This document shows, piece by piece, positions 1,464 to 48,220 of a stretch of DNA of 60,814 bases; the first letter of the stretch is position 1, and every line of letters starts with the position of its first letter. The DNA is taken from positions 1-60,814 of the IMG/VR virus record IMGVR_UViG_3300033144_004933, one strand, 5' to 3'. The notes under the pieces are model-generated. The model was given only the letters and a program-made list of their open reading frames with translations, ran no database searches and had not been told where the DNA came from. A program made the position numbers and the translations under genes. This DNA comes from a virus.

Positions 1464-4400
1464 ATGAAGCCACAGGTACATACTAATACTTTTATAAAGG
1501 GTATGGATAAAGATACTTCTAAACAGAAGTATGAAAATACCAAATATGAGAATTTGCGTAATGGCAGGCCTATAACTGATAAAGGACTGTCTACTAGGGC
1601 TCTAGAAAATATTAAAGGAAATGCTGTTGCTTATGATTTTCCCCTTTTAAAATCTTTTATGTACATAAGTGCTACTCCTTTAACAAATGATTCTCCTTTA
1701 GTAGAAAAACAAGAAAATGTAATTATAGATTTTGATGCTAGTTATCCTACATCTGGAAATGCATATTTTTCAGGAGTTGTAACTTTTCACACCGGAGAAG
1801 AGTATCTTACCCAGATTGCAGGACTTGTAGATACTTTTAATACCACTGTAGGAACAGGAGAAGAAATAAAATACTACAAAGTTCCAGGTGGAAATAATTT
1901 AGTACTTTATACTGAATTCGTACATTTTAACGGTATTATACTTCAAAATTATTCTCCTTACGCATCTGTAGAAGTTGCAAATGATTTTTTAAACTTTAAA
2001 GTAATAGGATCTACAGTCTTAAGAGAAAGATTACTTCTATTCACAGTCAATAAGCAAGGTCCTTTAGAATATGGTCAGATTTGGGAAAATACTTATGATT
2101 CAGAAAATCCTCTGGGTACCCAAAAAATAGTATTAAAATATAATCAGAAACTTAATTTATCAGAAAAACATCCTATAGAAGCTCTTTCTTATAGGGAAAA
2201 TGAAGATACAGAGCTTTTATATTGGACTGATAATTTTCATCCTCCCCGTAAAATAAATTTAGCTGATCAAAATGCAATGGCCCTTATTCCGGATGAATTA
2301 CTATTAAGTAGTAAATCTCAATTGTATCCTGCAATGGTAAGTGGGGAAGAACAGTCTGGAGGATTACTTCCTTCCGGAATTTATTATCTAACCTATAAAC
2401 TAGAAAAATTTGGAGGAAATATTACAAATATAGCTCCCTTTAGTAATTATGTACCCCTAATCGCAGATGTAACCTCTACCCAAGGAACAGAAACTAATTA
2501 TGAAAATACTAACTATCCAGAAACTACTATAGGTACCGAAAAATCCTTACGGTATTTAATTCCTAATATACCAAAAGGGTTTGATAAAATATATGTATAT
2601 GTAGTATATCAAGATGCTCCTTCTAATCAACTTGCTTATTTAGTAGAAGAAAAATTAATAGGTAATACCTCTTCCTTAGAACTAACAATATCTTCTCTGG
2701 GAGATAAGCCTAAAGTTACAGTATCTAGCTTATTTTCCTATGATATAGACTTTGAGAAGGTTAAAACTATGGCTACTAAAGATTCCAGACTACTTTTTGG
2801 AAACGTAAAACATGCTGCTTTTGATTTAGATTTTGATGCAAGAGCCTATAGATTTAATGCTAACGGAGACTCTTATACCCCTATTAGTTCTGGAAAATTA
2901 AATTGGGGAATTGATTTAGAAGAAAATGTTATAAATCCAGAAAATGATGATAGGACTGCTAATCTTTCTCCGGATGACTATTCTTATCAGACGGATGGAG
3001 TTACAAGAGGAGGAGAAGGTCCTAATATAAAATATGAATTTACTACCAAAGAAGTTATCTTAGACTCTTGTACTAATGCTGCTCCTACTAATACAAGCCC
3101 CTGGACTGGTTATCAAAATCTGTATAAATTAACTCCTATAAAGACTCCCTTTATAAATCAGCCTATAAAAACTACTGATTTATATGATATAGAAAATAAT
3201 ATTGCCTCCCCTATAGAAATAGACTTAGGTCCTGGATTTAGAAATTTTAAGAATACCCGATGGGAACACTACTACAAAGGCTATATGAGAGATGAAATAT
3301 ATAGATTTGGAATTGTTTTCTATTCTTTAACTGGAAGTCCCTCTGAAGTAAAATGGATAGCAGATATCAGAATGCCTATAGATTCTGAATTATCTGCAAC
3401 AAATCCTGATTCTGTATTGTGTAGATGGTGGGGAAAAGATGGAACTATACCCGAGGGAGTAGGACTGCCCTATGGAATACATGATGTAGGAAGAGATGAA
3501 GGAAATACTCTTCAAGAATATAAACTTAATTATGCTTCAGTAGGAGGAAGTTTAGGAGTAAAATTTACCGTAGATGTATCTTCACTTTCAGGTAAGATAT
3601 CTGGATATTCTATTGTAAGGTCTCCGAGAGAAGAAAAAGATAGAACTATATTAGCAGAAGGGGCAATAGGAGAAGTAAGAAAAGGGGTCTTTGGAGGAGA
3701 TGCCGCAAGTACTAATACTTTAGAAGGAGAGTTATTATACAATCATACTGATGTAAATGAAGGAAATTTTTCAGCATATTCTAGTAGTTTTGATCCTCAA
3801 GAAGTAGAAGATGTAGTCACTTTTGATGCTCCGGATCTTAAATTTATGACAGGAGCTAGGATTAGAGATTATGAAGGAGGAGAAACAGAAGAGAAATCTT
3901 ATTACCTAAAACCTGTTGCAGGATATGTTCATATAGATGAATCAGATACTGGTCTTGATGTAGGGCCTCTACAAGTACCTTTTCAAATTGCTACTCCCAT
4001 AGTAGACGGGGCTCCAGTAATAGGAACTCCTACTGTAATAAAACCTGAGAGTATTCATGAAAGTTTAGGAGGTGCTGGTCCTTCCGCTTATTGTAAATCT
4101 TTATTAAGAATATTTGGAGTAGGTAGGAATTCAAGACTAAATGCAGTAAAAGAAGGACAATCTTTTCCACAAAATGCTTATGGTAAATTAGAAGATATAA
4201 AAAAGGTTGAAAGTAATACTTTAGAAAGTAAAATACAGGGACAGAGATTTTCCAACAGAGGTAATCCATTATTAATATCTGATACTACAGGAGGAGCTCC
4301 AGTCATAAAGGCTATTTTAGCAGGACCAGGAGTTTTTACAGTTCTAGGAGCAGGGAATCCTAGTAAAAAAATGGCATGGAGAATTTTAAATGAATCCTTT

Positions 4401-6767
4401 GGATATACCAACCTAACTACTAAACCCCATGAAGACAATAAAATAGGAAATTTTTCCTGGTCTTCAAATAACTCAGATATTTCCCGGAAAGGACATACAG
4501 CAATAGTAGATCTTTGCAGACTTCCAAATAACCAATATGGGGGCAATACTTATCTGGCACGTCAGAATAGTGAGTACATAACTACAGGAAACTATGTTCC
4601 CGTAAATACTACGGATACAGAACTAAGTACTGTTGTATTTGGCGGAGATATAGCAATAAGTGCTTTTGGAGAGAAAAAGATATATGAACAAGCTTACTTA
4701 GACTTACAAGGCAACCAAACTACACAAGATCCTGAATCCCTTACAATTTCTTATGTATCTCATTTAATGGGTAGAATCTTTCCAGTACAAACTATTGGTA
4801 ATATAGAATTAAGAACCGGGTTTGAGTTCAATAACTACATACAAGGAGGGGGAGGAGATATATCTCTAAGAAGAATAGCTCCTGATGAATACTTATTGCC
4901 AGTAATGTATCATAAAGAGAAGACTTTACAACACTATTTAGTAGAAGGTGCTGGAAATACTATTATAGGGGAGTTTGATACTAGGGTTTATATGTCAGAA
5001 TTAAAGATAAACGGAGAGTTATCTGATTCCTGGAGTTCTTTTAAACCTTTAAATTATATTGATGTAGATGGTCCTTATGGTCCTATAAATAAATTAGAAG
5101 TTTTAAATAGAAAAATTATCTTTTTTCAAGACCATGCTCATGGAACAGTAGACCTTAATCCTCGTTCTCTAATTACTGATTTAGAAGGAGGAGAAATTGA
5201 ACTGGGTACTGGAGCAGGATTAGTAGATTTTACTTATGCTTCTAATACAGTAGGAGCATTTCATCAATGGGGAGTTTTAAAAGGCAATGGAGCTATTTAC
5301 TTTTTTGATGCTTATCATAAGAAGATGTATAAAATAGATGGGCAAGGAGTAAGAGCACTCTCAGACCAAAAATCAATGAGTTCTTATTTCTTTAATAATA
5401 TAGTAGGTTCTGTATTAAATAAAGATAACTCCCTATTATTTGAAGGAATAGCAACTACTTTTGATTATAGATTTAATGAAGCCATATTTACTTTCCACAC
5501 AAAAGTGGGATTATATGTTAAACCTTCTGGAGAAATAAACACTGCATTAAAAGAAGTTGTTAAAACTGAATATTCAGATAGGGTATTAGGAATAGTATCT
5601 ATTCCCCTTGGGGGAGGAATATCTATTCCTTATTATTTAGCTAATTTACCAGTAGTATGTCAAATAGATACCACTGGGGAAATATATGATATTAATCATT
5701 CTTTAGATACTTATCAATTAAATTTTGATAGTACTGCAGATTACAATAAAGTAATCTCTGATCTAAATGCGGGATGTAGATTACAAATTTATGATGGTTC
5801 CTCTACGGACCCTATCCTACTTAATAAATGGGTAAATGCTCAGGTAGTACCTGGATTTCAAAGTGAACAAAATTTTCAGATAGAAGCTCCGGTAGGTTAC
5901 TTTAAATATGTATTTAGCAATAATTTAACAGATACTAATCTAAGATATAGAACTGTTACTGATGATATTAACTTTAACAACATAGTAGAAGAACTAAATT
6001 TAGGGTACAATCTTCAAATAAAAGATCAATATGGTATTTGGAGAGAAGCTACCATAAAATCTTATACTCCAGATTCAATTATTTTAAATCTAGGATTAGA
6101 GTTAGAAAATACTTTTCCTGCTGTTTCCATAACTTCAGAGTGGCCCATAGAGCTGAGAACAATAGCCTATGAGTATGTAAGTCCTGAAGGGGAAGTTATC
6201 ACTACCGGAGATGATGATACTAGGGTAGCACAGTCCATAACTTTGGTATTTAATGAAGCCATAGACGCTTTTAGCTCTTTTTATGACCATTATCCTCCTA
6301 TTTATATGAATGATACCAGGAGGATATTCAGTCAAGTTCCTAAAGGATACCGGATGTATATACATGATGAAGGAAGAAGACAAGAGTTTTATGGAGTACC
6401 TTTTCCTATGACCTTAGATTTAGTAGTAAGTCCTAAGGGAGATTGGACTAAGGTATTCAACAATGTAGAGTTCTTTACAATACTAGAAAATGAATTAGGA
6501 GAAGATATTTTTAATGAAACTTTTCAAGAACTACAGATATACAATGAATATCAGGATACAGGTACAACTACTTTAGTTCCAAATACTAATGTCAAAAGAA
6601 GAATGAGAACTTGGAGATTAGCAATCCCCAGAGATAGTTCTGGTAGCAATGCCCGGATAAGAAATCCTTATGTACAAATGTTTTTAAAATTTCTAAACAC
6701 AACTGGAGTAGATAGAAGATTTGTAGTACATGACATAAATACGCACTATATAGATGTTCCTATGTAA
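1464..6767 (+). CDS. Tail nozzle / stabilization protein (T7 gp12-like)
   Basis: A 1767-aa protein. The N-terminus contains FIKGMDKDTSKQKYENTKYE (residues 11-30), then 'NLRNGR..TDKGLSTRALENIKGN'. This matches the N-terminal signature of phage nozzle/stabilization proteins (a GMxxD segment, then an 'N.R....G.S....NIKGN' strand). The bulk is beta-rich with many short G/N/T turns, consistent with the large beta-propeller tail nozzle of podoviruses. It would form the distal portion of the short tail through which DNA and internal proteins exit. No enzymatic motif is seen. It sits immediately after the putative tubular protein and is followed by about 100 bases with a promoter-like element. The assignment rests on N-terminal pattern, size and position. 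Confidence 0.62.
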   Translation: MKPQVHTNTFIKGMDKDTSKQKYENTKYENLRNGRPITDKGLSTRALENIKGNAVAYDFPLLKSFMYISATPLTNDSPLVEKQENVIIDFDASYPTSGNAYFSGVVTFHTGEEYLTQIAGLVDTFNTTVGTGEEIKYYKVPGGNNLVLYTEFVHFNGIILQNYSPYASVEVANDFLNFKVIGSTVLRERLLLFTVNKQGPLEYGQIWENTYDSENPLGTQKIVLKYNQKLNLSEKHPIEALSYRENEDTELLYWTDNFHPPRKINLADQNAMALIPDELLLSSKSQLYPAMVSGEEQSGGLLPSGIYYLTYKLEKFGGNITNIAPFSNYVPLIADVTSTQGTETNYENTNYPETTIGTEKSLRYLIPNIPKGFDKIYVYVVYQDAPSNQLAYLVEEKLIGNTSSLELTISSLGDKPKVTVSSLFSYDIDFEKVKTMATKDSRLLFGNVKHAAFDLDFDARAYRFNANGDSYTPISSGKLNWGIDLEENVINPENDDRTANLSPDDYSYQTDGVTRGGEGPNIKYEFTTKEVILDSCTNAAPTNTSPWTGYQNLYKLTPIKTPFINQPIKTTDLYDIENNIASPIEIDLGPGFRNFKNTRWEHYYKGYMRDEIYRFGIVFYSLTGSPSEVKWIADIRMPIDSELSATNPDSVLCRWWGKDGTIPEGVGLPYGIHDVGRDEGNTLQEYKLNYASVGGSLGVKFTVDVSSLSGKISGYSIVRSPREEKDRTILAEGAIGEVRKGVFGGDAASTNTLEGELLYNHTDVNEGNFSAYSSSFDPQEVEDVVTFDAPDLKFMTGARIRDYEGGETEEKSYYLKPVAGYVHIDESDTGLDVGPLQVPFQIATPIVDGAPVIGTPTVIKPESIHESLGGAGPSAYCKSLLRIFGVGRNSRLNAVKEGQSFPQNAYGKLEDIKKVESNTLESKIQGQRFSNRGNPLLISDTTGGAPVIKAILAGPGVFTVLGAGNPSKKMAWRILNESFGYTNLTTKPHEDNKIGNFSWSSNNSDISRKGHTAIVDLCRLPNNQYGGNTYLARQNSEYITTGNYVPVNTTDTELSTVVFGGDIAISAFGEKKIYEQAYLDLQGNQTTQDPESLTISYVSHLMGRIFPVQTIGNIELRTGFEFNNYIQGGGGDISLRRIAPDEYLLPVMYHKEKTLQHYLVEGAGNTIIGEFDTRVYMSELKINGELSDSWSSFKPLNYIDVDGPYGPINKLEVLNRKIIFFQDHAHGTVDLNPRSLITDLEGGEIELGTGAGLVDFTYASNTVGAFHQWGVLKGNGAIYFFDAYHKKMYKIDGQGVRALSDQKSMSSYFFNNIVGSVLNKDNSLLFEGIATTFDYRFNEAIFTFHTKVGLYVKPSGEINTALKEVVKTEYSDRVLGIVSIPLGGGISIPYYLANLPVVCQIDTTGEIYDINHSLDTYQLNFDSTADYNKVISDLNAGCRLQIYDGSSTDPILLNKWVNAQVVPGFQSEQNFQIEAPVGYFKYVFSNNLTDTNLRYRTVTDDINFNNIVEELNLGYNLQIKDQYGIWREATIKSYTPDSIILNLGLELENTFPAVSITSEWPIELRTIAYEYVSPEGEVITTGDDDTRVAQSITLVFNEAIDAFSSFYDHYPPIYMNDTRRIFSQVPKGYRMYIHDEGRRQEFYGVPFPMTLDLVVSPKGDWTKVFNNVEFFTILENELGEDIFNETFQELQIYNEYQDTGTTTLVPNTNVKRRMRTWRLAIPRDSSGSNARIRNPYVQMFLKFLNTTGVDRRFVVHDINTHYIDVPM

Positions 6768-12938: not shown

Positions 12939-15900
12939 ATGCCTCAATTTCCTGCTATTAATCCTTACACTAAGGCTCCTAAATACACTAGGAACCCCTA
13001 CCCTCTTGATGATTTATGGAGAGCTCAGGCTTATAAAGCTATGAAGGATATAAATACAGCTACAGAAGAGTATAATAAATTTGATGAGGAAGTACAAGCC
13101 CTAGCACAAAATATAGCAAATGAGAAAGTAAATCCTGCCCAAGCTGCTTCTAAATTAGCTGCCCTTCAAAGCAAGTATAAAAAAGCTGCTCATTCAGGGA
13201 CTCTTAAACACTTTGCAGAAAACTTACTAAGAGAACAAAACTATGATGCAGCATTAAAAGGTTGGGTATCTTCTGGAAGTAAAGGTCGAATTCCTGATGA
13301 ATTTAAAGATTTTTATAGAAATCAACGAACTACAGATGCATTACAATTTGATGCTGAAGGACAACCAACTACAGGAATGTATTCAAAAGATGCTTCATTT
13401 AGTAGCTACTATAAAGAACCCTGGATTCAAGCGTATTTATCTAAAGGAGCTACAGATGTAAAATCAAGTATAATTCAAAAATACGAAGAAGAATTTAAAG
13501 TTAAATTAGATGAAAATGAAAGAGCTCATTTCTTTACAGAAAAAAAAGGAGTTGGAAGACAGAGATTAGCTAAAAGATTACTATCAATGATTACTCCAGA
13601 TTTTATTGAATCTGCTCAATTTAAAACAGATGTTAAGAATAGAGTATATTCAAACAATCATAATAAAACAGGAGCAATAAAAGAAGATGAATTCTATACT
13701 GAAGATGCAAATGGTAATATAACTTTTGATACAGAAACTGAGATGGGAAGAATATTAGAAGGAGTATTAGAAGGATATACTTATGAACAAGCTACTACAC
13801 AAATAAGGAAATCTAGTGATCCAAAAGAAGGCACCACAGGGCAAACCCCAGGAAATAAGGGAGGAGGAGGAGGAAAAAAAGAGAAGGAAAAAGTAAACAA
13901 AACACTTAAGGGAGGCACAAATACTCTTAATACTGGTTACCTAAATACTACTTATTATGATAAGAGTAAACCTAACCCTGTAGCTACTTTAGAGGGACTA
14001 GAGTCTCAATTAACTAATGTAAATACTAATATATCTAATTATGAAAATGATACTATTCCACCAGATCAAGCTCTTATAAGTGCAGAAGATCATGCAAATA
14101 ATCTAATGCAGAGAAACATATTGGGATCTAGAATAGCTAATATAAAAGCTGAAATAGAAACTTTAAAAGAAGGATCTAATTATTATCCACAGTTAAGTCT
14201 TCTTGTAGAAGATGAAGACAAGTACTTATCCGGAGAAATACAGCATAGCGGTATAGTGTATGAAGAAGGATCTGGATTAGAAGAGGGGGAATATATACCC
14301 TATGAGAAAGTAGATTTAAACAAAGTAAATTTAGAAACTATAGAAAAACATAGAAACTTTGTAGAAGCTCTATCTTTAGAAGCCCCTAACTGGATAGATT
14401 CTGATGGAGCACTTAGAAAGACTCCAAGTGGAGTACCAATAATGTGGTCAACACTAAAAGGAGTAGATGGTAAAATGATAACTGGGGATGAAAAAAAGTA
14501 TCTTGAGAATATTATGAAATTCGCAAAAGAAAAAGATCATTTAGATAAAGCGGTTACTAAGCATGTAGCAGACGAAGTAACATCTCTTCAAGACAAAGGA
14601 AACAGAACTACAGATAAAAGAACAGGCCAGACATATCCCGAAGCACAGGATGCTCTTTTTAATGTTAGAGGATTACCTCTGTATGTAAACACAAAACAAG
14701 GTATTGGGTATACAGTAGATAAACAAATAACAGGCAGTCCTAAAGCATTTGCTTGGTGGGAAATAAAAACAGTGGACGGAAAAAAAGTACTAGCTAAAAA
14801 TCCAGCCTTTGAAAAATTAATATATCATCCAGATGCAACTATAAGTGAGGAAGATTTTAAGAATCTGACTCCAGCAGAACAGCAAACGAAAAAGGACGCA
14901 GCAGAGAAAAAAGGAGGATTATATGTTATGAATACTATAGGAATTACTGAACATCAACTTTCTAGGGACCATAATAATCCTTTAATTGCAGTAAAAGTTA
15001 AAAACAAAAGTACAGGGAAAGATCATATGTACTATGTAGAACCTAATAATGATCAGAATGAGATTTTTCAAGATATATATGATAGCTATGCATTACATGC
15101 AAAAGAGCATGGGGATAAACCTTCTGAGCAGCAAGCAACTAGGATAGCTAATATGCATTATTATGATAAATTTGAAGAGGCACTAGGAATAAATATGGGG
15201 AAAGGAGAAGTATTACCTATCCCCGATGCAGAAGAGCTTTATCCAGACCACGCTTCCCATTTAACTCCTCAAGAACAACAACAACTACAGCAGTCATTAC
15301 CATTTAACATAGGAAGTCGGAGTAACGTTCTTATAGGGGGAGCAAAAGAATATAATATACCTTTAGGAGGGGGAACAAAGCCCTATATGGATGGAACAAA
15401 GCGTAAACTTTTTGGAAACAATATTGACTTTAAAATTATACAATATCCAAATGGAATAGTAAGTATAAGAAGTCCTTTCCTTATTACAGAAACAGAGAAA
15501 ACAGGAGAAAAAGAAATGGGAGGAGGGGCAGATCAGGGACAAAGACTGGCTGCTTTAAATATGGCAAAAGACGAGTATGTAAAGGCTGCCAAAACGTATG
15601 CAAAAGTACATAGATTCGCTAACAAGCATACAATGAATAGTAACAAATTTGGAGCAACAGTTGCTGATGAGAAATTAAAAGATGACCTCATAAAGTATTC
15701 TCTTATAGAAGCGGGTATTAATCTTAATAATCCAGCTACGGCAACTGAGGAGAGAAAAAAAGAAGCCACAAAGAACTATAGAGATATGGCAAAGCATCTA
15801 AATAGGGTACTCTATACTAGAGATGAATCTTTTCCAGAAGATGCAAAAGAAGATGGGGTGCTATCAGATTTATATAACATAAATTTTACTTCTAAAGGAA

Positions 15901-15959
15901 AAGAAGTAACAAACTACCTTGCTACAGAATCTCCTCCTGGGACTCCTGCGGGAAAGTAG
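12939..15959 (+). CDS. Large structural/internal virion protein; upstream partner of a -1 frameshift fusion
   Basis: A 1006-aa, mostly helical, charged protein without a recognised catalytic motif. The N-terminal 100 residues are tyrosine/proline-rich then helical. A Gly/Lys linker (GGGGGKKEKEKV) near residues 310-325 separates two halves. The last zero-frame codons are GCG GGA AAG TAG, containing the canonical slippery heptamer G GGA AAG directly before the stop, with a stem-loop downstream. A -1 shift there would extend the protein by 662 residues (1668 aa in total), adding the M15 peptidase encoded next. The protein may therefore exist in two forms: abundant without, and minor with, a peptidoglycan-cleaving tail. 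In crAss-like phages this position is occupied by large internal virion proteins, so a role in ejection is plausible but inferred. Confidence 0.55.
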   Translation: MPQFPAINPYTKAPKYTRNPYPLDDLWRAQAYKAMKDINTATEEYNKFDEEVQALAQNIANEKVNPAQAASKLAALQSKYKKAAHSGTLKHFAENLLREQNYDAALKGWVSSGSKGRIPDEFKDFYRNQRTTDALQFDAEGQPTTGMYSKDASFSSYYKEPWIQAYLSKGATDVKSSIIQKYEEEFKVKLDENERAHFFTEKKGVGRQRLAKRLLSMITPDFIESAQFKTDVKNRVYSNNHNKTGAIKEDEFYTEDANGNITFDTETEMGRILEGVLEGYTYEQATTQIRKSSDPKEGTTGQTPGNKGGGGGKKEKEKVNKTLKGGTNTLNTGYLNTTYYDKSKPNPVATLEGLESQLTNVNTNISNYENDTIPPDQALISAEDHANNLMQRNILGSRIANIKAEIETLKEGSNYYPQLSLLVEDEDKYLSGEIQHSGIVYEEGSGLEEGEYIPYEKVDLNKVNLETIEKHRNFVEALSLEAPNWIDSDGALRKTPSGVPIMWSTLKGVDGKMITGDEKKYLENIMKFAKEKDHLDKAVTKHVADEVTSLQDKGNRTTDKRTGQTYPEAQDALFNVRGLPLYVNTKQGIGYTVDKQITGSPKAFAWWEIKTVDGKKVLAKNPAFEKLIYHPDATISEEDFKNLTPAEQQTKKDAAEKKGGLYVMNTIGITEHQLSRDHNNPLIAVKVKNKSTGKDHMYYVEPNNDQNEIFQDIYDSYALHAKEHGDKPSEQQATRIANMHYYDKFEEALGINMGKGEVLPIPDAEELYPDHASHLTPQEQQQLQQSLPFNIGSRSNVLIGGAKEYNIPLGGGTKPYMDGTKRKLFGNNIDFKIIQYPNGIVSIRSPFLITETEKTGEKEMGGGADQGQRLAALNMAKDEYVKAAKTYAKVHRFANKHTMNSNKFGATVADEKLKDDLIKYSLIEAGINLNNPATATEERKKEATKNYRDMAKHLNRVLYTRDESFPEDAKEDGVLSDLYNINFTSKGKEVTNYLATESPPGTPAGK

Positions 15960-16006
15960 ACCCCTCTACTAAACAACAATCCCCAGTAGTAGAGGAACCC
16001 CCGGGG
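15950..16006 (+). promoter_or_regulatory. Candidate -1 programmed ribosomal frameshift signal
   Basis: Slippery heptamer G GGA AAG (15950-15956) in the zero frame, immediately followed by TAG (15957-15959). After a 6-base spacer comes a perfect 9-bp stem (CCTCTACTA at 15963-15971 with TAGTAGAGG at 15987-15995). The loop's CCCC (15981-15984) can pair with GGGG (16003-16006) to form an H-type pseudoknot. The -1 frame is open from the slip site through the next gene without a stop. All elements have canonical order and spacing. Confidence 0.75.
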
Positions 16007-16252
16007 AAACAAAATACTCTAGTAACCGAACCAATAGAAGATAATCCTATTAATGCTTATATTGAGGAGGCAAAAGAAAAAATAGTAGAAAAAGGAAAAA
16101 AGATACTTCCTGGTATCAAACTTTCTGATTATAAAGATCAAGCTAAAGATGAGGCAGGAATCAAAGGCATTCCCACAGAGCCTATAAAAGATGAAGATTT
16201 TAAGAATATAAAGGTATCTAAAGGAGCCCATGCTCCGTATGCTCATAATGCT

Positions 16253-17944
16253 ATGAGAACCTTCTTAACAGACCTGGACAATGAAGGTATAAAAGCAACA
16301 ATTACAGGACTATTTAGAACAGAAGGATATAACAAATCTTTAAAAGGATCTTCTCCTAATAGCTACCATTTAGATGGTCTTGGAGTAGATATAGGGGGTA
16401 CTAAGAACAATAAAAGCATTAAGCAGATAAAAGAATATGTTGATGCTGGAAATACAGTAACTGTTGATGGTATAACATATAAACCGGAATATGGATATCA
16501 TGGAGACCATTTTCATTTAGAATTAGAGCCTCAAAAAGCTCCTGCAAGTCCTATAGGCCCTACAGGACCAGAAGGAAGTATTCCTACAGGAATAGAAGGT
16601 CCAAAATATACTCCACAAGCCAAAGAAGATGAGGGTGATCCATGGTACTCTGGCCTTACAAAGGCATCTACTGATTTTATAACAGAAAATATTCCTGAAG
16701 ATGTTGTCAATGTTCTAGAAAATCCGAATGCTACACTAAAGGATAATGCAGAACTAGCTCTACACTGGGTTCAAAAGCAAACTGGAACAGGTCTATATTC
16801 AGAAGAAGCAGTTAAAGCAGAGAAACTTAAAGTATACAAAGCAAAACAGAAGAAATATCAAGAAAAACAAAAGAAACTAAAAGACGAAGCAGCAGAAAGA
16901 GAAAGAAAAGCAATAATAGATGAACAGAATAGGCAGGAGAACTTGATATTTTTAAAAGATATTCAAGTGGGGGAAACTACCAAAACACATCCCTCTGGAC
17001 ACCAAGTAAAATCTGCAGTTGTAGATTTAGGAACAAGTGCGGAAAGACCTGGTGTAAAATTTGGTATTGGTCATAATTATAAAGTAGATGGATATAAACC
17101 CAATTATTATAAGAATCAACCAAATATAGACGTTCAAAACTCACGAGGAATTATAGGAGCTTTCCATCACAAGTTTGTTCCTTATGAGCAAACAGCAAAT
17201 AATAAATTTGAAGTTCCTGTTCAGCTTGCATGGAACCAGGAAACTGGAGTCTTTACAGCTAAAAAAACTGAAGATTTGCTTCCAAATGATTTAGTAGTAC
17301 CTTACCGTGGAGGAAGCAATCCAACAGGTAATATAACAAGACTTAAAGATTTAGATATTAAAAAATTAAAAGATGGCTCCTTTGATATAACCACTGGTGG
17401 TAAACATGGTATGGATACCACTAATGGAACATCAACAATTAAAAAGAAATCAGGAAAACATTTCCATATTGGAATAGATTGGGGAGAAAAAAGGGATAAA
17501 TATGGAAAAGTAGATTATACTACAGCAAAGGGTAAAGAAAGAGTTATAAACTCAAAAGATTTAAATCAGTATAGGTCACTAAGGGGAGGTATGGTTGTAA
17601 TTTTTGATAATGAAGCTGAAGTAAGTGTTATGGTTACAGGTAGTGTAAATAAAATGTTTCAGGTTGTTAATGAGCTTCAAAAGAAATATCCAAACAAGGA
17701 GTGGAATATAGCAAAAGGAGATACAGGTACATATGCAGTATCTGCATTTAATCCAGAAGGAAAAGGCACAACAACTGTAAAGGATTTTGCTTCTTATTCA
17801 AATCAGAACACTTATGGAGAAAGTCAATATTTAGTTCTATTAGAACAAGCTCAAGAGGAAGCTAAAGAAAAGAAAAATGAAATACCTTTTATAATTCCTC
17901 CTGAAAAATTAGAAGAATTAGTAAGTAAAAGTAATAAACATTAA
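16253..17944 (+). CDS. M15-type peptidoglycan peptidase domain protein (probably made as -1 frameshift extension)
   Basis: From the first ATG it is 563 aa. An M15 (VanY/D-Ala-D-Ala carboxypeptidase-like) core is visible: SYHLDGLGVD at residues 37-46 fits S-x-H-x-x-G-x-x-x-D (Zn ligands H39 and D46), an upstream Arg (R22), and GDHFHLEL gives the HxH ligand pair (H86/H88). A charged helical linker follows (about 190-225), then a C-terminal beta-rich domain of unknown function (about 230-563). The reading frame is open upstream to 15956, and the sequence there (SKGAHAPYAHNAM) looks like the first helix of the M15 fold, so translation probably enters from the preceding gene by -1 frameshifting rather than starting at this ATG. 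Likely role: local cell-wall cleavage during DNA ejection. Confidence 0.72.
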   Translation: MRTFLTDLDNEGIKATITGLFRTEGYNKSLKGSSPNSYHLDGLGVDIGGTKNNKSIKQIKEYVDAGNTVTVDGITYKPEYGYHGDHFHLELEPQKAPASPIGPTGPEGSIPTGIEGPKYTPQAKEDEGDPWYSGLTKASTDFITENIPEDVVNVLENPNATLKDNAELALHWVQKQTGTGLYSEEAVKAEKLKVYKAKQKKYQEKQKKLKDEAAERERKAIIDEQNRQENLIFLKDIQVGETTKTHPSGHQVKSAVVDLGTSAERPGVKFGIGHNYKVDGYKPNYYKNQPNIDVQNSRGIIGAFHHKFVPYEQTANNKFEVPVQLAWNQETGVFTAKKTEDLLPNDLVVPYRGGSNPTGNITRLKDLDIKKLKDGSFDITTGGKHGMDTTNGTSTIKKKSGKHFHIGIDWGEKRDKYGKVDYTTAKGKERVINSKDLNQYRSLRGGMVVIFDNEAEVSVMVTGSVNKMFQVVNELQKKYPNKEWNIAKGDTGTYAVSAFNPEGKGTTTVKDFASYSNQNTYGESQYLVLLEQAQEEAKEKKNEIPFIIPPEKLEELVSKSNKH

Positions 17945-17950
17945 AATACT

Positions 17951-20900
17951 ATGGCTATTGATCCTATAACTGGTTTAGAAGAAAATGAAGACGAGATTTC
18001 TTCAAGAATTGATCTAATGACAGGACTTTCTGAAGAAAATGGAGAAGAATATGGAGCAGAAATTCAACCCACTGCTTCTGTAGCTGCTTCTCCCCAGTTA
18101 ATACAATCAAGCTCTACCCCTACAGAACTAGTAAATCTTGCAGGTGAAGACTATATCCCAGAAGAATCAGATAATTTTGCACAACTTATAGAAAGAGAAA
18201 AAGCAAAAGATCAAGGAATATTTGAACTATTGTATAACACTGTTGTGGGAGGAACTCTTACTGGAATACTTGGAACTGCTATAGAAACAGGAGGATGGAT
18301 ATTAGATTTTGACAATCACTTAAAAGGACTTCAAGGCTATGATACATGGGAAAAGGCATGGTATACAGAAATGGCTCATAAAATAAAAGAATCTGTAGGA
18401 AAAGAAGGAGACGAATGGTATTCTGGATGGCTTACTAATCTTCCTATTTATAGAGAAGATAGAGGTGATATGTTTGACTGGGATGATCCAGGATGGTATG
18501 CAGAATCTGCTAAAGGAATACTTGATTCTGTTATAGGATTTGGAATTCCTGGATTAGGAGCCGCTAAAGCAGTAACATTATTTAATAAAGCTACTAGATT
18601 ATCCCAATTAATGAGAGCAGCTTCAAAGTCAGGTAAACTAGAAGGTGTTGTAACATCTCTTGGAGCAGGACTCTTAACTAATTACGGAGAAGGAAAAGTA
18701 ATGGGAATGGAAATCCATGATGATATTATGGAATATGGAAAAGAAGCGGGATGGTCAGAAGAAAAATCTAGAGAATTGGCTGGAGAATCTGCAGACCAAT
18801 TCTTATTTAGTAATAGAATTTTCATGCTTACGGATGCTTTGGGGATTCATGGAATTATGAAAGGAGCTGGATATACCAGAAATGCATATAAAGCAGGGGG
18901 ATTTAAAGCAGGAGCTAAGAATTTCCTTCAAAGTTTTAAAAAATTCGGTATAGAAAATCCTTTACTACAAGGAATTAAGGAAGCCGGAGAAGAAATGGGA
19001 CAGTTTGGATTTCAGGAGGCAGGAAGAGTAGGAGCTAAAGAAAAACTTGGAATGGATGTTTCTGATGAACCTGAAAGCTATCTTGAAAGAGCACTACTTC
19101 ATGCTTTTGATGAACAAGCTAGATATGAAGGAATGCTAGGATTTTTTAGTGGGGGTCCCCAAAGGATTTTTATGTCCCAAATGCAAAAAGCTGGTACTGC
19201 AGCTCTTCCAAAAAAATGGGGAGGAGCAGGTTATAAAACCCAAAAACAAAGGCAAAAACAAAGATATCAACAACAAGAAGCTTTAGTAAAAGAAGCACAA
19301 AAAGTTGTAGGAGACTTTGTAACACGTAAGGGGGAGATGGCGGAAACTTTAGCCTATTTTAAAAGTGTAGGAGATGATGCAATGGTAGAGGCTATAGAAA
19401 ACCATGAATTTGCACAAACTGCAACTGGATTTTTTCAAAATGGAGTAGCTGAGCATCTAGAAAAACAACTGCAAGATATTATAGATTCTACTAATCTAAC
19501 TGAAGAACAAGTAAAGTTATATGGAGAAGAAGGTAAACAAAAAGCAAAAAAGTTTCTTGGTGATTTAAAGACTCTTGAAAAAGAATGGATAAGTTTAAAA
19601 GGGTATGAAAATCAAGGTCGTTTATTTTGGAATCTTCAAAGACAGAAAGCACAAAAAAGATATGAACAAATTCATTCTGAGTCTAATAGTAAGTATAAAA
19701 CATCATTATTAGATCAAGCAAATAGAATTGCAAATTCATATAAATACAAAGATAAAGAGGGAGAAGAAAAAACTCTAGAATTTGATATAGATGATATTGA
19801 TAATACTAAGGGACAGCCTGGTAAAATATATAAGAAATTTGCAGATGAGGTTAAAAAATTACCTGATTATAAAAACTATATCTTCACTAAAGGCCTGATA
19901 AAAAGTGCAAGTGATAATATTCTAGCTCTTACTAGGCAATATAGTGCAATGGAGTCTGATAAAGGACAGGAGAAGCATATAGAAACCCTAAAGGAACAAC
20001 AAGAATTTTGGAGTAACCAGGCTAAACTTTACAGTGAAACTACTCAATCAGAAGAAACCCCCCAAGAAGGGGATTTAGTAGAAATAGATAGAACAATAGG
20101 AGTTTTTAAAGGAAAAAAGGAGAATAAAGATAGGGATACTGTTCTAGAAGTAGAAATTGGAGGTAAAACAAAGTACTTTGTTGATGATGAGGAAAATCCC
20201 ATGATCAAAAGAATAGATACTAAGCAGCAAAAGGAAAATGATGAGGATGCTGAGAAAGGAGAAGCCCCAATAAATGCCCAAAGACCTAGTAATAGTAGGA
20301 CTATGTCTGCAAAAGAACTTCAAGAGCAGGCTTTACAGGAAGAGATAGAAAATTTTATGGCTAAAGTAGAAACAGGGGCTATAGAAATAGATGAAAATGG
20401 GTCTCCTGTAAATCTAACTGCAGAAGAAGCTGAGTTTTATAGGAATAACAAGAAAGCTATTGATGCAAAAATTAATCCTCAAAAAACAGTTGATACCGGA
20501 GGGATAAAACCAGAATTTAAGGGTAAATTTATTTACTCAACACCAGGTTCTGGGAAAAGTACAATAGCTAAAAACATAGATGGAGTTGTAGATATGGATG
20601 ACATTCTACATCATCTTTTAGTACAGGTAGAAGGCTTTGAAAATGTTCCTAATGATAAGTCCTTAAATGAAAATTTATACAACCTATTCAAGATAGATGA
20701 CGGAAAAACTGCTCGTAAACTATACGAGCAAGCAGTACAGGCTGCTAGAGCCCTTACTTCACAGGGACATGTTGTTCTTACTGGCAGTAGTAGATTATTA
20801 GAGGATGTTGATGTAATTGTAGTATCCAGTGATAATGAGGGACTAAAAACTGCAACCAAAGGAAACTGGAAAACTACTAGAGAAAGAGAATCAAAAGTTG

Positions 20901-23900
20901 ATCCTGACCATACTATAGAAGAAGACAAATTTCTGGACTCTGTTCTAATGGAACAAGTAGAAGACGAAGAGGGTGGAGAAGTAGAGAAAAAAATGAGTGA
21001 TGAGGAATGGTATGAGGGAGAAACTATAGCAGATCTCATAGCCAGAGTAGGAAAGAAACAAGCTCTTTCTAATCTTAAAAAGGTTCATAAAGCTTTTACA
21101 GCAGCACTAGAAGAATTAGGGAAGACACATAAGACCATAACAGAAGAGGAAGAAAAACATAAATATAATGCCCGTGCCCTATCTCTTCTCGAACAAATAG
21201 AAGAAATAAGTAAAGCAATAAAAGAACTAGAAAATGCTAGTAAGGCTCCTCAAGATAATAACAAACAAACAGATGAAACTATTAATAAAGGACCAAGAAC
21301 TTTTGGTCCTCAGCCTACAAAGAAATCTACAGATTTACCAACTTCTTTTGAATCTAAACAGGCTTTTCATTTAGCCTATGTGTCTAGCAATGACCCCCTA
21401 CATCCGGGATCTGCAAAGGATGGATTTTATAATGAAGTATTAACTAAGTTATTAGAAGATCCAGATTGGAAGGCTGCAGGAGTAAGGGTAGTATATGAGG
21501 TAGACTTGCCTAAAGAAGATACTCCAACAATGAAGGCCTTTATGGTAAAAAATAAAGAAAAAGTAAAAGGCCTAACAAATAAGGTAATAAATAAAGAAAA
21601 GATTACAGATGAAGAAGCAGGGAGACTAACTATCAGAGTAGTATTTTTAAATGAAGATGGGACAGAAATGAAGAAGGACGGAGAAATAGTCAGAGCTTGG
21701 CTACATGATTCCGAACATCCAATGATAACTAGAAATGAGAGCAAAGAAGAGATACAGGGGTTAAAACAATTTATCTACAATCACTATAGAGAAGGAAATA
21801 AGGTAGGAGGCAGTTTATTAGGATATAGCCATCCTGGGCACTTAAAGGGAGGACCTAATTATAAAACAGATGCGGGGACTAATACAGCATCTGGAAATGT
21901 AAAAATAATACCAAAATATGGGCCTGCGGGAATAGCATATGCTAAAGCAAATAATGCCATATACTCTTTAAGAAGAAAAAATACTCAAAATCATTTTGGA
22001 AATCCTTTTGTTTCACTTACAGATGACCAAGGTAAAAAAAGAAATCAGGAAAATTATGAAAAAACAGCACAAGAGGGAGAGCTAGTGTGGGTAGATTCTG
22101 GTGAAGAATCCGTAAAAAATTACAGGGAGTGGCTTACTACCGATAAATATGATGGGCAGTCTGAAGCATGGGATAAAAGAAAAAAATGGATTTTAGCACA
22201 AATAGCGTCCGGGAAGTTAAAAGGTAAGACTATAATGTATTACAAAGAATTAGGACGACTTTCCCATGCTAATGTCTTAGATGAGCTAATTAATGGAGAA
22301 ATAGATAGAAGACAGTCCCCAGAGTTTATTCCTGTGATAGAAGCCTTAGGAACTACAAACCTGGAACTCGCTATAAGAGATGAGACTGGGGCATTAGTAA
22401 GTGGGTATAAAAAAGATTCAAAGCAGAAAGTAATAATTGAAAAATTAAGACATGCTGCAGACCCTAATAAACTTATAGGAGGAGTATATACCCCTGTGCA
22501 AATGTCAGATGGTAGTTGGTTACCCCATAGGCTACAAGCTTCTACTCTTACAGCAGAGGAGGCAGAGCTAATATATATGCTATATGCTAATCTGTTTAGT
22601 GGAGCAAATTATGGAGATAATATTAGTCCTGGAGTAATTAAGTTCATAACAGAACATAAAAACCCAGTAATAAACGGATTAGCAAAAGTATTTGATTTAA
22701 ATGATACAAACTATGACCAATTGAGAGACTTCTTTTTGTTATCAGGAAGAAAGAGGTTTGATAAAACTAATCCTAAAACAAGTATATTCTTTTCCCCTCA
22801 CGGGAATCAAATTAATTATGCTGGATTTATAAAAGAAGGGAAAGTTGCTTATAACTATATGAATAAACAGAACTTCCAGCAAAAAGATGTAAAAAAGAGA
22901 TTCATAGACAACTTAATGCTTAGAACAAGAAATATAACTTTAAGCACAATAAATAAAAAGGGAACCAATGCCCATCTTTTGGGAAACGGACTCTTATTAA
23001 GTGATTTAAGAGCTCCTGAAGGTCCTTCAACTGTTTCTTATCAGCCTACTGTTGCTTTAAATAGTAATGTATCTGTAGAGGGCTCTAAGACATCTAAGCC
23101 TCCTGTTTCTACAGAAAAAGCTCCTATATTAACTGTATATCAAGGAATAAAAGGGAAAAAAGAAAATAGGGACTTTAATTACTATACTTTAAGTAAGGAG
23201 GAAGCAAAAACTTACGGGGAAGTATCAGAGTATCAAATTAATACTGCTGGATTTTTAACAGGAAATACAGATTTGTATTGGGAGTTAATGAATGAATTTG
23301 AAGAAGATTCAGGAAAAAGATTTGATATTCTTGATTCCACTCCTGGCGGATTAAAACACCAGGCTAAGTTTTTTACTTTTTTAAAAGAAAAAGGATATAA
23401 AGGGTTAAATCTAATACCAGAGGGGGCAAAACCAGGAGTAGGAGAGAATCAATATATAGTTACCTTCTTTCCCGCTTTATCTACTAAGCAAAGAGATAAC
23501 CTAGTTTATTTAACTATGAGCAGTAATTCTTATGAAGATGCTAAAAAAAGACATGAAGCTGGTCAAGACCCCACTAAAAAAGAAATTGATGAAGGGAAAC
23601 AATTATTTGATTTATTAACAGAGGAAGAAAAAAATATTATTGGAAGTGGTGAAGCTTCAATGGAGTTTTGGGAGAAATTAAATGCAGATATAGGTCCTCG
23701 TTTTGAACAACAACCAACAGCTCCGGGAACTCAAACTAAAATAGATTTTGATACTAATCTTCCAGATACACCATCAAATGATGAAAATCCTTTTCAAAAG
23801 CAAATTCCTTATGTTGAAAATATTGCCAATCCCGCCCAGAAAAGAGATTATGAATCTTACATGCCGGATGGAGAAACTGAATCAATAGCAGTAGAAAAAG

Positions 23901-26900
23901 TACTTAAGAAGATAAAAGAACAAAGTACTGACCCCTTCTTGTTAGAAATGATAAAATTTCTAGAGGACAAGCGTTTTGATGTTTTCTCAGAATTTCCTTT
24001 GTTAATGTATACTAGGAATTCTGAAGAAATAGCAGCTATTAATAATTTACTAAAAGCAAATCCAGAAGTTAATGCAAAAACAATTGAAAAGCTTAAAAAA
24101 CATGTTCCGGCTTACTATGATACTGATAGAAATCATATAGTTATTAATAAGGATACTTTGCCTTATATGACTTTGAATGAAATTCATAAAACAATAGTAC
24201 ATGAGGTTTGGCATGCAGTTACTGCAGTTCCATTTACAAAGAAAAGAGCAGATAGAAACGCTGCTGAAAGAGAATTCGTAGATGCCATAGCCGGACTTTA
24301 CAGGATATTTAAAGACAAGAAATTTGATTTTAAAAGAGCTCAGGAGACTTATGGCTTTAAAACTCCTCATGAGTTTATGGCAGAAGTTATGAGCAATCAA
24401 TACTTCAGAGATGAGATAGCTAAAGAGTATCCCCCAAATTTCCTACAAAGAATGTGGAATGCTATAATGAAGTTTTTAAAGCTTCCTAGTAGACAAATAG
24501 GAATGCTTTTTAAGATAGAAAATACAATTAAAAAATTTGTAGATAAATCTCAAAAGTTCCCTCCCCAAGTACAAAGCGAGCTAACAAAAAGAATAATTTT
24601 AAAAAAGATACTTAGTCCTGCAGATAGACCCCTTAATCATTATTCAGATGATGATTTAGAAGAAATTACAGGAGCAATGACTTACATACTTATAGATGCT
24701 GCTAAAATAACAGACCTGGATAGTATTAAAAACATAAAAACACAATTTAAAGAAGATGAAAATGGACATAATAAAATATTCAGGGTACTGAATAATATTA
24801 GAATAGGTCATAACAATTCTGGAAATCAGGACATGGCCCAAAAATTTGCAAATATTCTATCACAAGAAGAGTTTCCTTATTTCATGGAAAGAGTTAAAAA
24901 TAACTTAGCAGAATATGGATTAAGAGAGAGATTAAGCAAACAGGAGGAAGAAGATAAAGCCGCAGGACTAGGAATTACCCCCTCATGGGAAACTAATCTA
25001 AAAGATAACGCTACTTCAAACACCAAATTAAGAGTAGCTTTTAATCCTATAGTAGCTGAAGTAACAGAAGAAGAAGGCAAAAGAACTTACAAATATGAAA
25101 AAGGACAGTATCTAGGCCTCTTCAAATTTGGAGATTTTAATGAGACTTGGAAGATACTACAGAAAGAACTTTCTGGAATAGTATCTACTAATAAGGAAAG
25201 AGATGTAATGAAAAAAATGAGAAACCGCTTAAATTGGTTAGCATTTTATGATAAATCTCTTTATAAATTAGTAGACTTTTTTGATGATCAGTCAATCAGT
25301 AATTTTAAAAAGGTTCAATTCCATAATGCTTTTAGTAAAACAAGATTAGCATATACCTCTACTTTTTTCAGACGGGTAGAAGATGGGACATATTCTTTTA
25401 ATATTGGAAGCTCAGATTCAGCTTCTGCTGAGAATAGATTATTAGCTACTTGGGAAGATAACTTCTTGTTTAAGTACACAAAAGCAGATAATGACCAAAT
25501 ACTGCATTTAAATATACCCAAGCTTCAAAAAGTATATGATAAATACCTTCAAGTTAAAGAGGAGATAAGGCAGATTGGTAAGAAAATGGAAACTAATCCG
25601 GATGCATATACCTATGAAGATTTAACAAAAGAACTAGATAAACTTTCCGAAGTACTACAGGAAACGGGTATGCAGATTTCAACCAAAGCTCTGACTTTAT
25701 TTATACGAGAAAATTTTGATGAGAATTTTGGAACAGGTCTTTTACATCTTATAACAGAGCCTTTAGCTAGAGTGTATGATTCTAATACCGGTAATACAGT
25801 TAAAAGACTATTAAACGGAAGTGCCGTTTTTGCTTATCAGCAGGAAGATAGTGCTTATACTGATTATAATACTCCTATGGCTAAAGAGCCTAAATTTAAT
25901 ACTCTTTTGCCCTCAGTGTTATTCTTTTCTAAAGATAACTATGAGAATATGATTCTAGGACAAAAAGGAAGTAAATATTGGCTCTATTCCCATCATGACT
26001 TTATAACCAAATCTGTTGCAGAATGGTTAGAAGAATCTGATAATCCAGAAAAATTACAACAATTAGCTTCTCTTCCTTTTTACCAGAATTCAAGGCTAGT
26101 ACAAGAGCTTATCAGTAGTCCAGATAAACTAAAAAACTTTAAACTACATCACTATAATAATTTTAAAGATACCGAAGATCCTTCTAAGGATGATGGCTAT
26201 ACAGAAATGAAAAAGCCAGATGATAGGGCAGATAGATATAATCGGACTATGAGAGGAACAGCTCCTTTTATGAATACTGCAGATAAGTCCAGGCATTTAA
26301 ATTTTAGCGGGGTAGGATTTAAAAAGACTAAAATTCTCTTCCAAGAAGATGGTAGTTATGATTTTCAAAGTAACACAACTGCTAAACAATCTGTAGAACA
26401 AGTAATTGGGTATTTAATAGATGAGATAAATGCTACAAGAGTAGCATTTTCTCAGTTATTTTCTGAAGATCCTATTCCTAGATCAGAACATGTAGTATAC
26501 TACCATTACCAATTAGATTCAAATACTGGAGAAAGAATCTACAAGGATAAGAACGGATTTCCGGTAGGAAATGCTTTTAAATTTTATACTTTCCCTGAAC
26601 TTAACTACTATAATGAAAAAGGAGAAGTATCTAATAGTGCAGATATATTCATGGAGGCTACTCCCGGCAAACCATATGTTATAAATGAAGAATATATCAG
26701 GACCGAAATTAATGAAGAAACAAATAAGGAAACGCTTATAGTAGAACCTAGCTTTTTTGATAAAATAAGACCTATTGCAGAGAAAAGTTTATCAGAAAGG
26801 GTAACTAATGCTGTAGATAAAGGTATAGAAGATGGTATAATAACTACCCAAGTGATAGATGGGGGTATGGTAAAGATAGATACAGGTCGTCTTGAAGATA

Positions 26901-29900
26901 TAGTAATAGATTCTAATGAATATAGCAAATTAGAATATGCTAAACTATACCAAGCCAGTGAGCAAGAAGCTCTTAGGAATTTAATGATGGATATCACCTT
27001 CAATTCTATTGTAAATAATATTGAACTTACTAAATTGTTTATAGGAGACCCTAGATTCTATAAAAATTTAGCAGATGTTAAAAAAAGAATTCCTGCAACT
27101 ATAGCTAATGGACAAGATTTAGCCATTTATCGAGATATGAACAATGAATGGGTAGTACCTCCTCATTATACACAGGCCACAGTTGCTAATGTAATCAGGC
27201 CTTCAGAATATTATGGACAAGAGGGATACGCAGACCTTATAGCAGAAGTAACAGGCTCTACTGTAGCAGAAGCTGAACAGCTCATAGAAGCTTATAAAGA
27301 AGTAAATGTTACAGATGCACAAGCCTGGATAACTTTAGATAGGGCAATCCAGATATATAAAGGATTAGGAAAATGGACAGATGCCCATGACGCTGCTCTT
27401 CCTGCAATAATAGATGGCACTGCAGATTTTCAAGAGTTAAGTTTATTCCTACAACCTATTAAAGGAGTTCATTATGAATTAAGAATAGAGAATGGAATGG
27501 CTATCCCCTCTTATTCAAAATACTCTCAAGCTATACTTTTACCTTCTTTGATAAAGGGCACTCATCTGGAAAATCTACTTGAAGCAATGCAAAATGAAGA
27601 CCAGCTCACTGACGAGGTCATAGTATTAGATGGTGTAAAAGTAGGAGCTACTGACATAGCTAATTGGTTTAATAAAGATACTTATGATATCAATGCTGCA
27701 GAAGATATTGTTCTTCATCCTGTAACATTAGATAATAGGTATTGGAAATTACAACAAGATTTATCTCCTCATGGATTAGGTCCTTCTCTAGTAGGATCAC
27801 AGGTTAAGAAGACAATGACTGCTAACATCGCACTAGATGATGATTACGGAGATGGTTGGACAGGTAGGGATGTTATACGAGCAGCTTATGATGTAGATAT
27901 GACTCTTTCAAATAGAGGAAGAGACTTCTTATTAAAAGAACTTGTTTATGATGAGAATACAGGCAAAATAAGTAAAGATAAGATTTATGAATTAATACTA
28001 GAAGAATCAAAAACTGATCCTTTCTTTTATAGAGAGGCTTTAGAAGAAAGAATTGATTTTGATGCCTTACCCCAATATGTTAAGAAAATAGAAAGCAGAC
28101 TATCTGCTCTTGTTACCGCAAGAACAACTAAGCTTAAACAATTAGGAGGAGCTTACGTTCAAGTTTCAAATTTTGGATTTGATATTAAAGAAAGCACTAA
28201 GTTGCCTGATAATATCAAGCAAGGAATAAAATGGTTGAAAGGCAAGGAGCCTTTAAAACCAATGAGAATAGAAAAAGACGAAGTAAAGCCCGGACAGTTT
28301 CTTTTACCTCATAAAATGTTGAAGGAAATAGAGGGATGGGAGAATATGACCGGGGAAGAAATTGCTAAAAAAATAGATCCGGAAGTACTTATAGCAATAG
28401 GATATAGAATTCCTAACCAAGCTAACTCTTCCAATGATGTAGGAGAAATAGTAGGATTTTTACCAGAAGCTGTAGGGGATGCTGTAGTAGTTTATAACGA
28501 GATTACCACTAAAACAGGTTCTGACTTTGACATTGATAAAATGTTCATGATGTTACCTGAATATGAAAAAGATGAAAATGGTAACATTGTTAAAGTTCAA
28601 TACTTAGATGAAAGTAATTCTACTCTAAAGGAAAGAATCAAAGTATTTGCTCCTACTACCCCAGAAGCGGCAATGATTAGAAAATCCTATAGGAAAGAGT
28701 TTGAAGACTTATATGAAAGAAGGAAACAGCATAGGGACAAGCAAACACAAAAGATAAATGCACTAAAAGAAAAGAAGAAACTACAAGAACAAGATATTGA
28801 TGAGTTATGGAGTACTGAACAAGAAGAACGAGATTATATTAAAACCTTAAAAGCAGAACTAAAAGAATTAAGAAAAGAAAAAAAACACTTAGGAACAAGT
28901 GCTTCTGAGTCTAAAGAATACAAAACAGTATCTGGTAACATTACAAATATAGAAGAAGAAATAGCAGAAAGATATGCAATATTAAAAGGATATGAAGATT
29001 TAAGAGCTTCCATAGGAGAAACTAAGCTCAAAAAGACAGACGTTGATAAAGAATATGAAACTAAGTCAGAACAAATTCGCCTATTTAAAGAAGAAAAACA
29101 AGCATTAAAAGACAAGATGCAAGAAGAGATTGAAGCTATTATTGATGAAGAAAAATTTGCAAGATTGCCTATGTTGGAACAGAATACAGATTTAGCTCTT
29201 CATAACAGGAGAATAGATGTGTGGAGAAGAATACTGCTAAACAAAAACAAATACTTAGAAGTAACAGCTCCTTTAGATGGTCCCGGCACTATTACTGAAC
29301 AGGTTAAAAATCAGATAAAGGAACTATTCCCAGAGAAAGCTCTAGGAAACTTAGAATTCTTTTCTTTAGAAAATCAGCTGGAAGACAAACATTCCTTTTT
29401 AGGAGGAAAATTTGGAATAGGAGTAACTGCTAATCAATTAGTAGATCATTCTCTTACTCAATTCTCAAAACAATTTCTAAAATTAAAATTGGGAATAGGA
29501 CACGCAGATGAAGATGGGTACATGGATTTATCTCAGCTATATGACGTAGACCACAGTACCGGAGAAACGAAAAATTTAATAATAGGGGCTATAGCAGCCT
29601 ACCTAAATGCTTACGTAGACATTGCTAAAGACAACTATATTACTCGGGGAAATCATAATCTAATAACTGCTAATACAGTTTTTATGCTCCTAAGGGCTGG
29701 AGTACCTTTTAAATTTGTGAATGCTTTTATAGCCCAACCTATCCTACAAGCTTATGTCCAATTAACAGAAAAAGACCAGGCTACTGTAACAGAAAGAGAA
29801 TTTGATCAGGAGGGAAGAAATGTAAGTGTATTGAGACAGACTCTCAATCTCTTTGGAGGTCAAATGTATAACAGAGATGACTTGCCCACTCTTAATTTAG

Positions 29901-47782: not shown

Positions 47783-48220
47783 TCAGGAGATTTTTACATA
47801 AACTCCCGGTTTGGTTTTATTATAGCTATACCATTGCTTTTTTCTCAGAAAAGGAACGGGTATAAAACAATCCATATCATCATCTGAAATAAAATCATGG
47901 GCTACCATGAGGTCTGCTATAATTTGAACAGCATTGTGAAAATCAAATTTATGTCTACTCCCTCTAACAAAATGAAATTGTACTACATAAGGAGGAGATT
48001 TATCTCCTACCATAGATAGCCATTTAGCTTTTAACTCTTCAAATTGATTGGGCTTGTTGACATACTCTTTGACCTCCTTACTCCTTACAGAGTATCCTTT
48101 AATTCCTAGTCCTCTAAGATATTTAACTACTGTCCTAGAAGGGAATATCCCCCTGCTGGTCTTTATCTTGCTGTTCTTCAGAGAGGGCACATTTCCTGGA
48201 ATAAAAATCATATCCGACAT
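47783..48220 (-). CDS. RusA-like Holliday junction resolvase
   Basis: A 145-aa protein. It starts 'IFIPGNVPSLKNSK' (the usual RusA beta strand and Lys/Asn segment) and carries the acidic active-site pattern D93-x-x-N96...D103...D113-D-D in 'KFDFHNAVQIIADLMVAHDFISDDD'. RusA-type enzymes cleave four-way junctions; in phages they resolve branched DNA before packaging. Its 5' end overlaps the primase gene by 86 bases in another frame. An internal Met (MIFIPG, three residues later) is an alternative start. Length and motif spacing are normal for the family. Confidence 0.8.
   Translation of the reverse strand: MSDMIFIPGNVPSLKNSKIKTSRGIFPSRTVVKYLRGLGIKGYSVRSKEVKEYVNKPNQFEELKAKWLSMVGDKSPPYVVQFHFVRGSRHKFDFHNAVQIIADLMVAHDFISDDDMDCFIPVPFLRKKQWYSYNKTKPGVYVKIS

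Follow-up and report, generated by a model that had tools for sequence, protein, structure and literature searches.

Gene order and the probable cargo protein

The window, which here means the whole stretch of 60,814 nucleotides analysed (IMG/VR virus record IMGVR_UViG_3300033144_004933), encodes in order a muzzle protein, proteins of 1198, 808 and 1006 amino acids, an open frame with a peptidase domain of family M15, and proteins of 4641 and 2124 amino acids. The muzzle protein (1464–6767, plus strand) was recognized by the Crassvirus muzzle profile PF25731 with an E value of 1e-136, and a second Crassvirales profile, PF25729, was also matched. The 4641-amino-acid protein (17951–31876, plus strand) includes a catalytic RNA polymerase subunit homologous to g066 of Cellulophaga phage phi14:2, to which the virion RNA polymerase shows 29 %. 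Because of this muzzle protein and this virion RNA polymerase, the phage is placed by sequence as a deep-branching member of the Crassvirales, distantly related to crAssphage of the gut. About 2,300 residues precede the catalytic subunit in the 4641-amino-acid open reading frame, which, judged from its sequence, is probably a fusion of two phi14:2 genes; a comparable protein of 4491 amino acids is found in phage cr4_1. Elsewhere in the window a primase-like gene (47783–48220) and its neighbour (48135–49208, minus strand) overlap by 86 nucleotides, and the homologues of this pair overlap by about the same length in a related fragment (L021).

The 1006-amino-acid protein is encoded by the open reading frame at 12939–15959 on the plus strand. 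Between the muzzle and RNA polymerase genes phi14:2 has three genes, g070 to g068, whose annotation comes from virion mass spectrometry, and crAss001 has its cargo proteins gp45 and gp46 there. The latter two are ejected cargo in the published model (PMC10172136). The 1006-amino-acid protein occupies the position of phi14:2 g068 and crAss001 gp46, and since it lies between muzzle and RNA polymerase as in these two phages, it is probably a cargo protein stored in the virion, an assignment by gene order and not by homology. It thus shares its gene position with the cargo proteins C1 and C2 of Crassvirales (gp45 and gp46; g068–g070) but differs from them in having no detected sequence similarity. 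The profile search gave no match to PF25712 (Crassvirus cargo protein 2), and alignment with hhalign to crassvirus C2 sequences was not significant. An M15 extension was seen only in the phage of the window among those compared.

Candidate slip site, RNA structure and coding signal at the junction

The 1006-amino-acid frame ends in CCT GCG GGA AAG TAG. Within this end lies the heptamer G_GGA_AAG (15950–15956, plus strand), a sequence of the -1 slippery type in the phase of the 0 frame, followed directly on its 3' side by the 0-frame stop TAG (15957–15959). The 0 and -1 frames overlap over 21 codons (15896–15959) and the heptamer falls inside this overlap. G_GGA_AAG was reported to be highly shift-prone in Escherichia coli, and it is the shift site between the g and t genes of a tailed haloarchaeal virus (PMC5009743). 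After a spacer of 6 nucleotides (TAGACC) a candidate stimulatory stem-loop is predicted at 15963–15995, with stem arms CCTCTACTA (15963–15971) and TAGTAGAGG (15987–15995) that form 9 perfect pairs around a loop of 15 nucleotides. The distance lies within the ~5–9 nucleotides expected for a structure predicted to stimulate slippage. The stem has a minimum free energy of -14 kcal/mol, moderately unusual in comparison with shuffled sequences (z ~-2.2; range -1.7 to -2.2). The loop may furthermore pair with downstream sequence, TCCCC (15980–15984) with GGGGA (16003–16007), giving a potential H-type pseudoknot over 15980–16007 with helices S1 of 9 bp and S2 of 5 bp and loops L1, L2 and L3 of 8, 2 and 7 nucleotides. 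The sequence-only reading had pointed to the heptamer before the TAG, a perfect 9-bp stem after 6 bases and a possible CCCC–GGGG pseudoknot; the first two were found as described, and the third proved to be one pair longer than proposed.

The rarity of this arrangement was assessed over all genes of the window (18,031 codons), taking X_XXA_AAA/G in frame as a strong heptamer and a stem of 8 bp or more, 4–9 nucleotides downstream, as a potential stimulator. There are 59 such heptamers, and 60 codons have such a stem. Heptamer and stem occur together at one of the 59 only, G_GGA_AAG at 15950–15956, which is also the one that precedes a stop with an open -1 frame. The product of the two rates gives an expectation of ~2e-4 coincidences in the 21-codon overlap, with S2 left uncounted. 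GC-rich 5-bp pairing between a loop and downstream sequence occurs at 0.0037 (0.37 %) of random positions, and in the plus strand genes between 1 and 38265 a perfect 9-bp stem with 4 or more G/C starts at only 3 places.

The -1 frame is open from after the TAA at 15893 up to the TAA at 17942. Its first ATG, GTG or TTG is the ATG at 16253 and no CTG occurs earlier, which leaves a coding stretch (15960–16252, plus strand) that is reached only if ribosomes shift. Coding potential was evaluated with a codon-usage score trained on the other large plus strand genes of the window, in which wrong frames come out at -0.97 ± 0.24 and true frames at 0.47 ± 0.10. From 0.67 in 15896–15956 the 0 frame falls to -0.97 beyond the heptamer, where it contains 9 stops, while the -1 frame scores 0.50 over 15960–16252 and 0.46 in the first third of this stretch. 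By these scores of both frames on either side, the change of coding frame lies at the heptamer and not as far downstream as ATG 16253. The -1 frame had been claimed to run uninterrupted into the M15 gene, and it is indeed open to 17944, its coding signal at full strength as soon as the heptamer is passed.

The whole -1-frame extension (15956–17944, plus strand) comprises 662 codons with an M15 domain, a coiled region and an unassigned C-terminal part. A profile search of the genome matched Peptidase_M15_3 (PF08291) at 16208–16450 on the plus strand with 24.1 bits, against a cut-off of 23.2; the score was 22.7 bits, just below the cut-off, for a protein of 202 amino acids and 20.4 for the 662-amino-acid protein. 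The translation contains YHLDGLGVD and GDHFH, which fit HxxxxxxD and HxH and which we take to be the Zn-ligand motifs of peptidase family M15. The match begins ~14 residues upstream of ATG 16253 and its score drops when the protein is truncated there, which bears out the earlier impression that the residues before this ATG resemble the start of the M15 fold. A single-sequence structure model of the domain, of low confidence (pLDDT 55), has a first helix that spans ATG 16253; with a model of this quality no confident PDB match was obtained. The C-terminal part of the frame holds a second histidine-rich stretch, GKHFHIGIDWG (within 17370–17500), without a family match. Since the -1 frame is coding without a start of its own, and the M15 match begins before the ATG, ribosomes must be carried from one frame to the other.

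Proposed frameshifting and its alternatives

The heptamer phase, adjacent stop, spacer, stem, S2, codon-score switch and start of the M15 domain agree, and for this reason programmed -1 ribosomal frameshifting that yields a minor cargo–peptidase fusion of 1668 amino acids is the preferred reading of the sequence, with a probability of roughly 0.8. Most ribosomes would terminate at TAG 15957 and produce the 1006-amino-acid protein. A minority would pause at the stem-loop or pseudoknot, slip back by one base on G_GGA_AAG (to GGG AAA) and read on to 17944, which would give a 1668-amino-acid protein that ends in an M15-type peptidase. The lengths proposed in the sequence-only reading, a 1668-residue fusion beside a 1006-residue protein, agree with the frames as read (1006 + 662). 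Because the 1006-amino-acid protein is by gene position probably a cargo (ejection) protein, the fusion would bring a restricted number of peptidase domains into the virion as part of the cargo. The peptidase, if active, may then cut cell-wall peptides during entry of the genome and the RNA polymerase.

A serious rival is an indel, either an error of assembly or sequencing or a recent real one, since a broken single gene gives an equal coding pattern; there would then be one frame of 1668 amino acids and the TAG would be an artefact or mark a disrupted allele. Coding signal is normal in both frames up to the junction, as for such a broken gene, and the homopolymer pairs of GGG AAA are indel-prone places. 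Neither a relative spanning the junction nor a second copy of it was found in IMG/VR, annotated phages and the sampled Bacteroidota genomes. An indel leaves unexplained, however, that the heptamer is in phase and abuts the stop, and that a 9-bp stem follows 6 nucleotides on (joint chance ~2e-4 or less), and the other large plus strand genes of the window are all unbroken. Furthermore, L022 (IMG contig 3300033153), which comes from the same virus and is an independent contig, aligned with the window over 8,382 bases outside the junction with 2 mismatches and no gap (99.98 %), and because of this the assembly looks accurate. In view of this evidence an indel is considered unlikely.

Contigs of this clade were found through other genes. 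Besides L022 these are the fragments L021 and L002, of which L002 (IMG contig 3300033148) belongs to a related virus with 47 % in the RNA polymerase-associated protein; all end short of the junction. Samples 3300033153 and 3300033148 thus exist in which the junction might be read. For the 1006-amino-acid and M15 proteins themselves no usable relatives were found in IMG/VR or among annotated phages. A search of the M15 part against 396 Bacteroidota genomes gave nothing usable, with two weak matches (E 3e-4 to 4e-4) that fall on query residues 277–429, in the coiled region outside the M15 domain. One Bacteroidota genome (G242, contig C1, 957721–958719) has an open frame of 5145 amino acids with 25 % to the RNA polymerase-associated protein; from its sequence this is possibly an integrated crAss-like element.

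Less probable than an indel is the production of two separate proteins, the M15 open reading frame having its own start at ATG 16253 or being translated by ribosomes that reinitiate past the TAG. This ATG is present and leaves an open reading frame of 563 amino acids, and a separate M15_3 open frame has precedent in distant Crassvirales. Three distant Crassvirales contigs were found, two of which (G002 and G003) were read at the cargo region; the M15_3 profile had no match in the cargo region of phi14:2, crAss001, cr85_1, cr4_1, G002 or G003, and G003 and cr4_1 carry M15_3 in a separate place of the genome, in a small separate open frame. Against separate synthesis in the window stand the 293 bases between TAG and ATG, which have full -1-frame coding signal and contain no stop and no ATG, GTG, TTG or CTG, and the fact that a start at 16253 costs the M15 domain its first residues and part of its score.

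More improbable still is a function of the hairpin in ending transcription, or as some other RNA element without a role in frameshifting. A 9-bp stem near a gene end would suit a terminator, but on the plus strand the hairpin is followed by AACCCCCGGGGAAAC and not by T, no terminator was called, no Rfam match was obtained and the hairpin lies inside a coding stretch. The weakest alternative is reassignment or readthrough of TAG. Recoding of TAG does occur in Crassvirales (genes in the cargo region of cr4_1 have in-frame stops, and the M15_3 match in this phage extends across 3 TAG), but as a route to the M15 frame it is refuted by the sequence: with TAG as sense the 0 frame is closed by a TAA within ~22 codons and the M15 frame is never reached, and the other large plus strand open reading frames of the window end in TAA and are open without TAG as sense.

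Comparison with known systems and significance

The gpG and gpGT products of phage lambda are assembly chaperones that are absent from the virion. The junction described here resembles lambda gpG/gpGT and other tail-chaperone shifts in that a -1 frameshift close to the end of a late gene would yield a minor, C-terminally extended product, and its heptamer is itself a g–t shift site in the haloarchaeal virus (PMC5009743). Unlike in lambda, the first open reading frame here belongs to a crAss-like phage and encodes a probable cargo protein, which the shift would extend by an enzyme domain. Gene 10 of T3 and T7 and genes of Lactobacillus phage A2 and Listeria phages A118, A500 and PSA likewise give a minor longer form of a virion protein by frameshifting (PMC5009743). 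In those phages it is mostly an Ig-like decoration domain that is added, and the protein that carries it belongs to the shell or tube, whereas here a peptidase would be added to a probable internal protein. With retroviral Gag-Pol the logic is shared, a structural protein bringing an enzyme into the particle by frameshifting (PMC5009743), although the proteins and viruses are unrelated and the design alone is similar.

In published work phages use frameshifting to make tail chaperones and to extend capsid and tail proteins, by Ig-like domains among others (PMC5009743). The suggestion that an ejection-type protein is an unusual target for -1 frameshifting is supported by this distribution, the phage cases being mainly tail-chaperone and capsid- or tail-decoration proteins. 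Frameshifting on a phage ejection protein was not found described in the literature searched, nor was frameshifting in Crassvirales genes in the part of the literature on both subjects that was covered. The mechanism is known and its proposed use would be new.

The wider reading, in which a crAss-like phage follows Gag-Pol logic and controls, by -1 frameshifting on an internal, ejected cargo protein, how many cell-wall peptidase domains a virion carries and delivers with the RNA polymerase at entry, is held with even odds. If true, it would suggest that such cargo fusions are divided by gene callers into two open reading frames, with the peptidase truncated. It would also point to a way for a deep-branching crAss-like phage to get through the cell wall, and DNA phages would then ration an entry enzyme by the Gag-Pol solution, a fixed minority of the copies of a probable ejection protein carrying the enzyme.
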